Origin: Lachnospiraceae bacterium | Lineage (GTDB): Bacteria > Bacillota > Clostridia > Lachnospirales > Lachnospiraceae | Direction of reading: 5' to 3' | DNA: 64,000 nucleotides | Assembly (NCBI GenBank): GCA_022794255.1 | Contig: JAAWEL010000064.1 | Location: 1 to 64,000 of the forward strand | Part shown: in pieces, positions 39,144-42,910 of the stretch | How positions within the stretch are numbered: the first letter of the stretch is position 1 | Layout of the letters: every line of letters begins with the position of its first letter | Program-made: the position numbers and the translations under genes | The notes under the pieces: model-generated | The model's input: only the letters and a program-made list of their open reading frames with translations | Told to the model about the DNA's origin: nothing | Database searches by the model: none

Positions 39144-39172
39144 TTTATATCATTATGCTTCATTCAAGTCAA
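39144..39172 (-). promoter_or_regulatory. Sigma-A promoter of prs (lepB)
   Basis: TTGACT (39167-39172) and TATAAA (39144-39149) on the minus strand are spaced by 17 bases. The -35 box overlaps the dnaC stop region at 39169. Confidence 0.7.
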
Positions 39173-40167
39173 GATAATCCCCGAAAATTTCTCTTTTTCA
39201 TGCGGATATCCCCCCCATAAAGAGGGACCGTGGCATAATGGCTCATGATGCGTGAGGTAACCCGGTCTGAATATGTATCACGAAGCATTCCCATGGACAG
39301 ATTGGTGGAAATAATGGTGCCTTTCTGCCGGCTGATCCGCTCATTGACACAGTAAAACAGCTGGGAGGACACAAACGTGTTATTGACCTCTGTTCCCAAA
39401 TCATCAATAATAAGCATCTCACATTCCAGAATATGACGGTAGCTCTCCTCAACCTCCTCCGAAATCTCCCTGCCAAACTTGCATCGGGAGAGCAGTTCAA
39501 ACAGATCCTGAGAAGTCAGACAGATCACAGAAATATATCGGTCAATCAGCACCTTTGCAATGCAATTGGTAAGAAATGTTTTCCCCACGCCTGTACTTCC
39601 TGTAAACAGAAGGTTTCTCCCTCTTTTCGGAAACTCTGCTGCAAACTCCTGGCAGTTTTTCACCACCATCCTCATATAAGCGGCCTCTGTCATTCCCAAA
39701 TGATCCAAACGGATATTTTCATCATACCACGCATACGAAAGCGTGTCAAAATTCTCCGCTTGCAGCACCTGTCGGATATTGGACTGCGCATACAAAATCC
39801 TGGTTCTTGCCTGCTCAAAGCAATGGCATCGCTTTCCCATGGCATAGCCGGTGTCCTGGCAATCCGGGCATCGAAAACGCAGCTCCATATAATCGGTTGG
39901 GTACCCGGCCTCCTTTAAAAGCTGTCTTTTTTGCCTCCTTAAATCTTCAAGCCTTTTCTTAAACCGTTCCTTCGCACTGTCATCCCCGCTTAACACCTGC
40001 TTAGCCGATGCGGCCCCCTCAGATCGTATCGCCTCATCTACGCTCCGAATCTCCGGCACCACCCTGTAAACCTCTTCAACCCGTCTCTGTCTGTCATAGC
40101 GGTTTTCCAGCTGCTGCTTCTCATAGTCTCTCATCACCTCATTGTACTGAGAATTGTTAAGTGCCAT
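39169..40167 (-). CDS. dnaC: DnaC/DnaI-type replicative helicase loader
   Basis: The 332-residue AAA+ ATPase loads the DnaB helicase onto DNA. It has an N-terminal region with a zinc motif (CPDCQDTGYAMGKRCHC, about 99-117), Walker A FTGSTGVGKTF and Walker B MLIIDDLGTEV, followed by STNLSM. The zinc motif plus ATPase layout matches DnaI. The ATG at 40167 is preferred over the adjacent GTG at 40170. It follows dnaD by 33 bases and forms one operon with it. Confidence 0.9.
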   Translation of the reverse strand: MALNNSQYNEVMRDYEKQQLENRYDRQRRVEEVYRVVPEIRSVDEAIRSEGAASAKQVLSGDDSAKERFKKRLEDLRRQKRQLLKEAGYPTDYMELRFRCPDCQDTGYAMGKRCHCFEQARTRILYAQSNIRQVLQAENFDTLSYAWYDENIRLDHLGMTEAAYMRMVVKNCQEFAAEFPKRGRNLLFTGSTGVGKTFLTNCIAKVLIDRYISVICLTSQDLFELLSRCKFGREISEEVEESYRHILECEMLIIDDLGTEVNNTFVSSQLFYCVNERISRQKGTIISTNLSMGMLRDTYSDRVTSRIMSHYATVPLYGGDIRMKKRNFRGLS

Positions 40168-40200: not shown

Positions 40201-41265
40201 CTATGCCTGTCCAATCCAGCTTTTTACCTGATCTAAAACCATGGCATCATAATCTGTCTGACGTTGCTCAAAATTGTGGAATTGGTTTGTTGCCCTCTTT
40301 CCAGTCGCGTTTCTCTTTTTTCCCTGGCGTTTTTCATCCAACACTGCCACATCCCGGACCGTCCTCACCCCAGCCTTTTTCCACTCACTGAGAATCTTAT
40401 CTGCATACGGAAAGCTGGGAGTATGGGTCGCTTCCATAGTCCGGTTACATGCTTCCAGAACCAGCTCTCTGGAAAAACCATAAACGGAAAACCACTTCTC
40501 AATCATCTGTTTCTCCTTCTCACCGGGTTTTCGCCCTGTCAGGCCAAAACAGCGCATAACTGCAAAAGAATCCTTGGTAAACCCGCTGGCATAAGCTCTG
40601 GCAGATTCTACTGTGTTAAGCCCCCGCTCATGCCAGTTCAGACCTACTGTCTCAATATAACGGATACTGGTATGCCCTCCCTGAACACAGTATTCTACCA
40701 GATATTCCAAAAGTTCCGTTGTCATATGAAGGCCGTCATAAAGGTAAGCAAAGACTTCACATTCACGAGAAGTAAAAACTTTGTTTAAATACTTCTGAGC
40801 TATGTATAAAAGCTGAGTAAAATCTTCATCCTCTGCTAAGCGGTTCACCTGTTCCTGACTGTACACCGGCCGGCCGGAAGCCGATGTCTGTTCTGAGGCT
40901 TTTGTCAAAGCAGCGGTCTGTTCCCGACTATCCTCACTCTCACTGCGGATCACCACAGTCCTGTCCTCCAAAGCCGCCTCTTCCAATGAGGGCTGTAATT
41001 GCCCTGGTGCCTTCCTGCTCTCTGTCTCTTTCTTCTCCATCTGAAGCACTCCTAGTTTTTCCCAGTAAGCAAGGGCCCTTTTTACATCTGACTCCGTATG
41101 GTTTAATGCATCAGCAATCCTGTCAATATCCACCGGCTCCTGCTGATGCCGCAGCAAATACAGATACACCTTCACGTATTCTCCATTGGCCGCCGCCATA
41201 TATCGGTCAACAAACTCATTGGCCACCAGCGTTGCTTCCATCTGAAAACTGCAGATCATATCCAT
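40201..41265 (-). CDS. dnaD: DnaD-domain replication protein
   Basis: The 354-residue protein has an N-terminal winged-helix region (about 12-75, YVKVYLYLLRHQQEPVDIDRIADALNHTE), a variable charged linker (about 80-140) and a DnaD-like domain (about 145-225, FTSRECEVFAYLYDGLHMTTELLEYLVEYCV), with a second DnaD_C-like stretch (about 255-310). DnaD and DnaB proteins remodel the origin and recruit the helicase loader, here encoded next to it. Start ATG at 41265; an adjacent GTG at 41268 is possible. The promoter region carries tandem DnaA boxes. Confidence 0.88.
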   Translation of the reverse strand: MDMICSFQMEATLVANEFVDRYMAAANGEYVKVYLYLLRHQQEPVDIDRIADALNHTESDVKRALAYWEKLGVLQMEKKETESRKAPGQLQPSLEEAALEDRTVVIRSESEDSREQTAALTKASEQTSASGRPVYSQEQVNRLAEDEDFTQLLYIAQKYLNKVFTSRECEVFAYLYDGLHMTTELLEYLVEYCVQGGHTSIRYIETVGLNWHERGLNTVESARAYASGFTKDSFAVMRCFGLTGRKPGEKEKQMIEKWFSVYGFSRELVLEACNRTMEATHTPSFPYADKILSEWKKAGVRTVRDVAVLDEKRQGKKRNATGKRATNQFHNFEQRQTDYDAMVLDQVKSWIGQA

Positions 41266-41330
41266 CACTTCCCACCCTCTCTATTATTTTCTATTCTAGC
41301 ACATCCTTTTTCAAAAAGAAATAGGCGCAT

Positions 41331-41530
41331 TTATCCACCGAATGAATTGTGGATAATGTGGATAAAGTGGATAAACCATAACGAATCTCTTGTCAAACCA
41401 TGTCAAAATCAATCGTTTTCTGCCAAAATCAGGGGATTTCGGAAAATCGTGGATTTCCGTCCGAAGAAAGAAAAAATCCACATAGTCTCTTACCTCAAAA
41501 AGTGGAAAACTATGTGGATAATGTGGATAA
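41331..41530 (-). promoter_or_regulatory. Cluster of DnaA boxes upstream of dnaD-dnaC
   Basis: Four exact TTATCCACA boxes (minus strand) lie at 41348-41356, 41357-41365, 41513-41521 and 41522-41530. One-mismatch boxes lie at 41366-41374 (TTATCCACT, minus strand) and 41331-41339 (TTATCCACC, plus strand). The boxes abut with a 9-base period: three in a row near the dnaD promoter and two in a row beside the murC stop. A minus-strand extended -10 (TGCTAGAAT) follows near 41296. DnaA likely regulates dnaD-dnaC here. Confidence 0.75.
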
Positions 41531-42910
41531 CTATTTCCCAAGAAGCCTTTCCCCAACCTTTACAATGTCTCCGGCGCCCATAGTTATCAACAAATCACCT
41601 GGGGAACAATTTTTTAAAATAAATGTTTCAATTTCATCAAACGTGGAAAAACAGCTTACGGGAGTGCCCAGTTTTGCAATCCTCGCCCCTATATCCTCCG
41701 AGCTTACCCCCAGTGTGTCCGTCTCCCGGGCCGGATAGATCTCTGCCAGAACCACCTGATCGGCTGCCGCTAACTCTCTGGCAAAATCATCCAAAAGAGC
41801 TTTTGTGCGGGAATAGGTGTGAGGCTGGAATACACACCACAGCTTCTTATGCGGATAGTTCTTGGCTGCTCTTAAGGTGGCTGCAATCTCCTGAGGGTGG
41901 TGTGCATAGTCATCAATGATGGTTATGCCTCCCACCTTCCCCTTTTTTTCAAATCTTCGCTCTGTTCCCGAAAATCCTGCCAGGCCTTTTAAGATCGCCT
42001 CCATGGGCACTCCTAAAGCCTCTGCGGCTGCCACTGCGGCCAAGGCATTGTACACATTGTGTTCCCCAGGCACTCCTAATCGAATCCGGCCGGCCGGAAC
42101 ACCTTTTTTCATCAGAGTGAAAGACGGACAGGCCACTTCATCATAGGAGATATCTGTCACACCATAATCCCCCTTCACTCCATGGCCCAAAATCACCACC
42201 TGGCAAGCCAGCCCCTGAGTAATTTCCTCCGGATTATCTATGGCCCCATCCAAAATCAGCAGTCCCTCCTTTGGCAGCCTGCCGGCAAAACTTTTAAAAG
42301 AATGGCGGATATCATCCAGATCCTTAAAAAAATCCAGATGATCTGCCTCTATATTAAGAATCACCTCAATGGTAGGGAAAAATTCCAGAAAGCTGTTTGT
42401 ATATTCACAAGCCTCTGTGACAAAAAGCTCCTGCCCTCCCACCCGGATGTTTCCTCCGATTGAGTGGAGGATTCCCCCCACCGATACGGTAGGATCCATA
42501 TCTGCTGCCAGCAAGATCTCTGTCACCATAGAGGTTGTTGTTGTCTTTCCATGGGTTCCCGCTATAGCCAAGGCATGATGGTAATTTTTCATCATCTGAC
42601 CCAAAAGCTCCGCGCGGCTCAGCATGGGAATCCCCCGGCGTTTTACCTCCTGATACTCTGGATTGTCCGGATGGATGGCCGCTGTATACACAGCCAAATC
42701 AATCCCATCGCCAATGTTTTCTGCCCGTTGTCCGTAAAAAATTTTTGCCCCGCAACCTTCCAGATGGTCAGTCAGACCACTTTCATGGGCATCTGATCCC
42801 CTGACTGCAAATCCCTCCTGTAGCAGAATCTCTGCTAAACCGCTCATACTAATCCCGCCGATTCCTATAAAATAAACGGTCAATGGTTTTTGAAAATCAA
42901 TCTGATACAT
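41531..42910 (-). CDS. murC: UDP-N-acetylmuramate--L-alanine ligase
   Basis: MurC adds L-Ala to UDP-MurNAc, the first step of peptidoglycan stem synthesis. The 459-residue protein has the N-terminal Rossmann motif FIGIGGISMSGLAEIL, the ATP-binding GTHGKTTTTSMV, HLDFFKDLDDI and the C-terminal DDYAHHPQEI and FQPHTYSR signatures. All expected Mur ligase motifs are present. Its stop codon directly follows the tandem DnaA boxes. Confidence 0.96.
   Translation of the reverse strand: MYQIDFQKPLTVYFIGIGGISMSGLAEILLQEGFAVRGSDAHESGLTDHLEGCGAKIFYGQRAENIGDGIDLAVYTAAIHPDNPEYQEVKRRGIPMLSRAELLGQMMKNYHHALAIAGTHGKTTTTSMVTEILLAADMDPTVSVGGILHSIGGNIRVGGQELFVTEACEYTNSFLEFFPTIEVILNIEADHLDFFKDLDDIRHSFKSFAGRLPKEGLLILDGAIDNPEEITQGLACQVVILGHGVKGDYGVTDISYDEVACPSFTLMKKGVPAGRIRLGVPGEHNVYNALAAVAAAEALGVPMEAILKGLAGFSGTERRFEKKGKVGGITIIDDYAHHPQEIAATLRAAKNYPHKKLWCVFQPHTYSRTKALLDDFARELAAADQVVLAEIYPARETDTLGVSSEDIGARIAKLGTPVSCFSTFDEIETFILKNCSPGDLLITMGAGDIVKVGERLLGK

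Follow-up and report, generated by a model that had tools for sequence, protein, structure and literature searches.

Two clusters of DnaA boxes lie in the gap between murC and dnaD of this Lachnospiraceae genome, one of them embedded in the predicted murC terminator and the other on the promoter side of dnaD. We propose that DnaA would bind both clusters, bridge them by a loop and control, more likely activate, the predicted dnaD-dnaC operon; judging from sequence, we give this reading a probability of about 0.55.

Results

DnaA boxes between murC and dnaD

The window, that is, the whole stretch of 64,000 nucleotides analysed, contains a leftward-transcribed gap of 265 bases (41266-41530). Upstream of it lies murC, the UDP-N-acetylmuramate ligase gene (41531..42910, minus strand; an open reading frame with the Mur_ligase, Mur_ligase_M and Mur_ligase_C domains), and downstream lies dnaD, encoding a primosome protein of the DnaD/DnaB_2 family (40201..41265, minus strand; PF07261 DnaB_2, E 2.7e-38). 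An AAA+ gene follows dnaD (39169..40167, minus strand; IstB_IS21 1.1e-13, Bac_DnaA 6.2e-6), and its Pfam matches and place after dnaD suggest that it encodes a DnaC/DnaI-like helicase loader. The flanking genes checked with Pfam are those of MurC, DnaD (DnaB_2), the DnaC/DnaI-like AAA+ protein, a PRPP synthetase-like protein, HPF and SecA.

The distal cluster is a run of two abutting boxes (41513-41530) that match the DnaA-box consensus TTATCCACA exactly, both on the minus strand: box 1 (41522..41530) directly adjoins the murC stop codon (41531-41533), and box 2 (41513..41521) abuts box 1. The proximal cluster, on the same strand, is a run of three abutting 9-mers (41348-41374), made of a one-mismatch box (TTATCCACT; 41366..41374) and two exact boxes (41357..41365 and 41348..41356). 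An inverted one-mismatch box on the plus strand (41331..41339) adjoins the predicted dnaD promoter, whose extended -10, TGCTAGAAT, lies at 41293..41301 (minus strand) and is conserved in the alignment of relatives; an inverted box at an offset of about 190 recurs in close relatives. The coordinates thus bear out the initial annotation of this DNA, which had described four exact and two one-mismatch boxes, abutting in a three and then a two, between the murC stop and the dnaD promoter. The same genome encodes a DnaA with the HTH domain PF08299, and from this and the box consensus we infer that DnaA is the probable regulator at this site.

The density of boxes had been called unlikely by chance, and the numbers agree. 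When the gap (268 bases, murC stop codon included) was shuffled 20000 times with dinucleotides preserved, no shuffle had more than 1 exact box vs 4 observed, and the Poisson probability of four exact boxes in 200 bp at the genome-wide rate is ~4e-11. The 3.42 Mb draft (90 contigs) contains 98 exact boxes, as compared with 14 occurrences of the reversed control pattern, so that the 9-mer is ~7-fold commoner than its control. At least three exact boxes within 200 bp are found in two places of the genome only, the murC-dnaD gap and C83:115201-115316 between hpf and secA (this count was run on seven contigs with close boxes, and the remaining box list was judged by eye). The exact tandem 18-mer TTATCCACATTATCCACA has four genome copies, two at each of these places. 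The genome-wide scan suggested in the initial annotation therefore yields one other similar cluster only.

Conservation in the Lachnospiraceae

Comparison with relatives, the other check suggested there, shows that the boxes are widely kept between murC and dnaD; neither of the two outcomes named there as refuting was thus seen. Of 397 family genomes, 222 contain the exact tandem 18-mer, and the reversed control has 0 occurrences in every row. Among the matches listed there are 30 tandem loci, the window's included: 21 are at murC-dnaD and 7 by hpf, one lies between dnaA and rpmH (L058) and one, judged by eye, between Fur-like and HIT-like genes (L038).

A dnaD similarity match was found in 392 of the 397 genomes. 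From these we assembled a set of 110, made of the 30 listed loci and 80 of the next 86 rows (six were skipped, not by their boxes); five in which murC was absent from the piece were dropped, and the 105 used lean to closer relatives. At least one exact box was present in 100 of the 105 gaps and at least two in 81; the tandem was found on the dnaD strand in 58 gaps and on the other strand in 0, and of 292 exact boxes 275 have the orientation of dnaD. No 9-mer is found in more of these gaps than TTATCCACA (97 of 105), whose 292 exact copies compare with a shuffle mean of 0.61. The first exact box begins 0-4 bases from the murC stop in 82 of the 105. Long gaps have two runs, the distal one at offsets 0, 9 and often 21 and the proximal one frequently around 156/165/174; short gaps (112-150 bp) have one run only.

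Two further panels were anchored on MurC and picked blind to the boxes, giving 144 usable gaps after murC: 58 of the 60 genomes G001-G060 (panel 1) and 86 of 90 further handles of distinct genus (panel 2), the latter leaning to more distant relatives and containing no genome fetched earlier. Exact boxes numbered at least one in 120 of the 144 gaps (50/58 and 70/86) and at least two in 95 (37/58 and 58/86). The exact tandem occurred on the dnaD strand in 60 gaps (28/58 and 32/86) and in none of the 144 on the opposite strand, with 295 of 309 exact boxes oriented with dnaD. The gene after murC is dnaD in 140 of these gaps; the other four run off the piece or are followed by an unrecognised gene. 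No exact box was found in 24 of the 144, and four gaps of panel 1 had none even at one mismatch (L292, L295, L336 and L352, with L292 and L295 measuring only 11 and 69 bases). A MurC scan of named genomes gave 80 loci among the matches listed, 77 of them usable and some of the same species as genomes of the other sets; an exact box was present in 76 of the 77 and the tandem in 47. These relatives include Lacrimispora, Enterocloster, Hungatella, Blautia, Mediterraneibacter, Butyrivibrio and Lachnospira, from which the family is very likely the Lachnospiraceae.

The distal cluster overlaps a predicted murC terminator

The predicted intrinsic terminator of murC occupies 41471..41519 on the minus strand: the segment 41519-41506 pairs with 41489-41476 and is followed by a U-tract, and seven of the nine bases of box 2 form the foot of the stem. 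The predicted RNA fold has -23.9 kcal/mol (z -2.77; 2 of 200 shuffles were as good). A simple promoter and terminator scan, whose loops were of 3-8 only, missed both this long-loop terminator and the conserved extended -10, and no known Rfam family was found at E<=1 over 41000-41800.

We aligned the stem in 51 relatives picked, out of 83 with box 1, for having both box 1 and the TGTGGATT terminator arm; the arm is absent in the other 32. The upper stem covaries, with 95.7% of cells paired in the 51 relatives as compared with 30-49% in slid versions, and with 70 doubly changed stem cells vs 22.3 in shuffles, a number reached by 0 of 500. Counted by stem pairs with any double change the alignment gives 5, no excess over shuffles (102 of 500 reach 5). 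The seven pairs in the box part of the stem are invariant or nearly so, which is partly due to the selection of rows. Just past the U-tract many of the relatives' gaps also contain a conserved TTTACATAA, exact in 39 of 105, and a number of them have a TTCGACA motif further downstream.

The two runs are spaced with a period of about 11 bp

In 109 gaps with two abutting runs we measured how far the first proximal abutting box lies from the distal run. The commonest distances were 154-157 (37 gaps) and 163-168 (28 gaps); smaller groups occurred near 88, 99, 121, 143 and 176, and some gaps had in-between values such as 135, 146 and 180. The best period in this first set was ~11 bp; it was picked from this set and recorded before a second set was fetched. 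A lineage clustering of the first set placed 92 of the 109 genomes in one cluster, and its n=18 is crude and was replaced by the following tests.

In the second set, of 38 two-cluster genomes, R was 0.52 at 11.0 bp (Rayleigh 3e-5), with a phase of 0.02 vs 0.08 in the first set. Without two near-copies of earlier regions the result was R 0.52 (n=36, 7e-5), at a 70% identity cut R 0.46 (n=29, 0.002), and with distinct distance values alone the probability was 0.001 to 0.01. Shared descent was addressed by sister-pair contrasts on a MurC tree of both sets (140 leaves, 70 pairs), in which six periods were examined. Where the distance changes by at least 4 bp, it tends to do so by close to a multiple of 11 (mean cosine 0.39, n=39, p ~1e-4), and also when steps of 8-10 bp are left out (mean cosine 0.35 at 11 bp, n=29, p 0.003). 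Contrasts of exact boxes only were weaker, with z 2.6 at 11 bp and z 2.4 at 9 bp; on a bifurcating tree the 60 pairing repeats of this test amount to about one pairing, not to 60 tests. Since the exact-only contrasts give z 2.4 at 9 bp, the inter-run signal is partly confounded by the 9-bp slots of the boxes. The short gaps have one cluster, and therefore no loop of the two-run kind would form there.

Boxes lie upstream of the predicted dnaD promoter

The sequence TRTGnTATgAT is conserved before dnaD in an alignment of 21 relatives, and once repeats are removed, 258 of 293 gaps have the extended -10, which marks a putative promoter and start site. A box on either strand, with up to one mismatch, overlaps the stretch from -35 to -10 in 4 of the 258 gaps, none of them exact, and lies downstream of it in 4 of 258. 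The region upstream of the -35 is the usual site of contact activators.

Distances from the proximal abutting run to the extended -10 gave a mean cosine of 0.58 at 10.5 bp (n=27). When measured from the last one-mismatch box in the two-cluster set the values were 0.22 at 10.5 bp (p 0.035) and 0.33 at 9 bp (p 0.002). No period was found in the one-cluster set, nor in three distances to the dnaD start codon. The phase between run and promoter depends on how a box is defined, and we regard it as suggestive, supporting evidence only.

A second locus at hpf, and tandem boxes in other families

The second cluster of the genome (L003:9202-9317, corresponding to G000:C83:115201-115316) has five exact boxes between hpf and secA, arranged as two abutting pairs and a single one. 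Upstream of hpf an exact box is present in 27 of 54 family genomes and the tandem in 14 of 54, making this site less constant than that at murC-dnaD. Of 26 spacings between runs at hpf, 25 are of 41-44, 52-54, 76 or 97 bp and one is of 39, with R 0.88 at 11 bp, uncorrected for descent.

For 375 genomes from outside the family, the matches listed contain 57 exact tandem sites, spread over 52 of the genomes, and 44 of the 57 were examined in pieces of ~3 kb. No MurC or DnaD was within reach of these 44; 2 of them lie by hpf and 9 by a solute-binding-protein gene. In another Clostridia family (f24; L171-L174, L255-L264) the tandem lies past the dnaB 3' end and before an oxidoreductase-like gene at 12 of 14 sites, or 13 of 14 if a site with only the next gene in reach is included, and at hpf in 1 of 14. 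The neighbour of the tandem in four other families (L146-L151, L162, L267, L268) is a family-3 solute-binding-protein gene, and several of these tandems are part of a stretch rich in boxes. A common rule that would place tandem boxes at helicase-gene promoters was rejected, as the f24 boxes are at the dnaB 3' end and the 44 sites have neither MurC nor DnaD nearby.

Position in the chromosome

The genome of the window is a draft of 90 contigs, and we turned to 17 single-contig relatives, taking the second DnaA-like AAA+ match as the loader gene and dnaA as a marker of oriC. The loader gene is 2.4-13.5% of the chromosome away from dnaA in all 17 (five chromosome sizes were rounded). In 14 of the 17 it is head-on to the expected fork direction, which is unexpected for origin-near replication genes. 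GC skew across the window gave no firm replication arm.

In the genome of the window, the murC-dnaD cluster is an intergenic cluster away from dnaA, on contig C28, and dnaA is on C20. There dnaA has a boxed intergenic region of its own, with boxes spaced differently from those at murC-dnaD. About 16 kb from dnaA, two exact boxes in inverted orientation and separated by 23 bp were also seen (L005:8889-8920; G000:C20:26888-26919), inside an open reading frame that by eye resembles an Orn/Lys/Arg decarboxylase.

Discussion

A proposed DnaA loop at the helicase-loader operon

Four observations go beyond the initial annotation: the terminator overlap, the spacing of the two clusters, the second locus at hpf and the nearness of the locus to dnaA in single-contig relatives. 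We propose that DnaA binds the terminator-embedded distal cluster and the promoter-side proximal cluster, and that the bound DnaA may bridge the two by a DNA loop, which would control the predicted dnaD-dnaC helicase-loader operon. Activation seems the more likely sign, because the boxes almost never overlap the predicted -35 and -10 and sit at the usual place of upstream-contact activators. Transcription coming from murC would be kept away from the DnaA complex by the terminator, and DnaA, once bound, might itself contribute to ending murC transcripts. Some titration of DnaA would follow from the sites themselves, as a side effect.

If this is correct, DnaA control of dnaD would close a feedback loop, since B. 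subtilis DnaD is reported, in the available text of a review, to inhibit cooperative DnaA binding (PMC5295017). A broader proposal, to which we give somewhat less than an even chance, is that of a cell-cycle switch used throughout the Lachnospiraceae, in which the DnaA loop sets the supply of helicase loader, DnaA and DnaD form a feedback, and hpf belongs to the same regulon.

The initial annotation had offered two functions, coupling of loader expression to DnaA activity or titration of DnaA. The former is favoured, because the one-sided orientation, the phasing between runs and, less firmly, the phasing to the promoter are traces expected of a loop regulator; with the locus close to dnaA in all 17 single-contig relatives, titration may still be a side effect or even the main role. 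As a chief function we consider titration unlikely, if the most serious of the alternatives. Boxes of high affinity close to the origin, duplicated soon after replication begins, would sequester DnaA and postpone re-initiation. The multiple exact boxes fit such a role, as does the distance of 2.4-13.5% from dnaA; tandem boxes at other loci in other families are what titration sites could also show, and there is a precedent in the six B. subtilis clusters outside oriC described in the accessible portions of two reviews (PMC5295017, PMC13220808). However, titration needs no single box orientation, no helical phasing and no place at the dnaD promoter, and conservation of gene order alone could hold the locus near the origin.

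It is also possible, though we think it clearly less probable than titration, that the loop lets DnaA repress dnaD, or that DnaA is mainly a roadblock or terminator aid against murC read-through into dnaD. The predicted terminator has box 2 as its foot, and terminator-bound DnaA is described, in the text available, as blocking transcription at E. coli asnC and adding to attenuation at datA (PMC10950094). Yet a pure roadblock needs no proximal cluster past the terminator and near the promoter, and many short-gap genomes keep boxes without the TGTGGATT arm (32 of 83 being without it); a box lies over the -35 or -10 in just 4 of 258 gaps.

That the repeats are kept purely as an RNA element, a terminator or attenuator unrelated to DnaA, is very improbable: the stem does covary, but its box part is invariant while the upper stem varies (partly by the choice of rows), the hairpin takes in neither box 1 nor any of the proximal cluster, the 18-mer is found again upstream of hpf, and the 9-mer is ~7-fold above its reversed control. 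A second replication origin or an origin remnant, suggested by the two groups of boxes, is the least credible of all and was set aside, as the gap does not adjoin dnaA, which has its own boxed intergenic region on another contig (C20).

What is known in detail about the control of replication initiation comes from a small number of models such as E. coli, B. subtilis and Caulobacter. In the large gut family studied here, a conserved and regularly spaced DnaA-box element accompanies the genes of the next step, helicase loading. If the DnaA loop that we propose does set DnaD levels and DnaD restrains DnaA, this would be a feedback on initiation timing that we did not find described in the models.

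Comparison with known systems

In the literature searched, mostly without subscription papers, the murC-dnaD element appears unreported: 'DnaA box' with 'Lachnospir-' returned an unrelated plasmid paper only, and 'DnaA box' with 'hibernation' returned none.

A first likeness is that of the six DnaA-box clusters (DBCs) of B. subtilis, which are also outside oriC and whose joint deletion leads to early initiation (Okumura et al. 2012, as summarised in the available parts of the reviews PMC5295017 and PMC13220808). Their loci differ: in the accessible text of PMC4447404 the top-20 regions bound by DnaA in vitro include gcp-ydiF, ywlC and yqeG-sda and none at dnaD, and secA and yvyD do not occur in it. 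Neither did we meet abutting tandem 9-mers, terminator overlap or two-cluster phasing in the portions of the DBC accounts at hand.

The DnaA regulon offers a second likeness, as its members have DnaA boxes at replication-related promoters; according to the text available they include sda in B. subtilis (PMC4447404) and the helicase gene dnaB in Caulobacter (PMC8203912). In the accessible part of the latter, a review of DnaA as a transcription factor, dnaD does not occur.

A third likeness is found where DnaA sites meet the end of a transcript. At E. coli asnC, DnaA bound at the terminator of the gene blocks transcription (cited in PMC10950094); as at murC-dnaD the sites are at a gene's terminator, and the available text mentions no helicase-loader operon for asnC. 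At E. coli datA, DnaA box 1 overlaps the glyV-X-Y terminator, as box 2 does the predicted terminator of murC, and a datA box adjoins the -35 of a further promoter, again from the accessible parts of that paper (PMC10950094). As far as these parts go, datA differs in that it inactivates ATP-DnaA together with IHF and in its gene context, which is unrelated to that of murC-dnaD. To our knowledge, IHF is not expected in Firmicutes. If the overlap at murC-dnaD is functional in the way that we propose, its echo of datA would suggest that the joining of a DnaA site with the end of transcription arose more than once.
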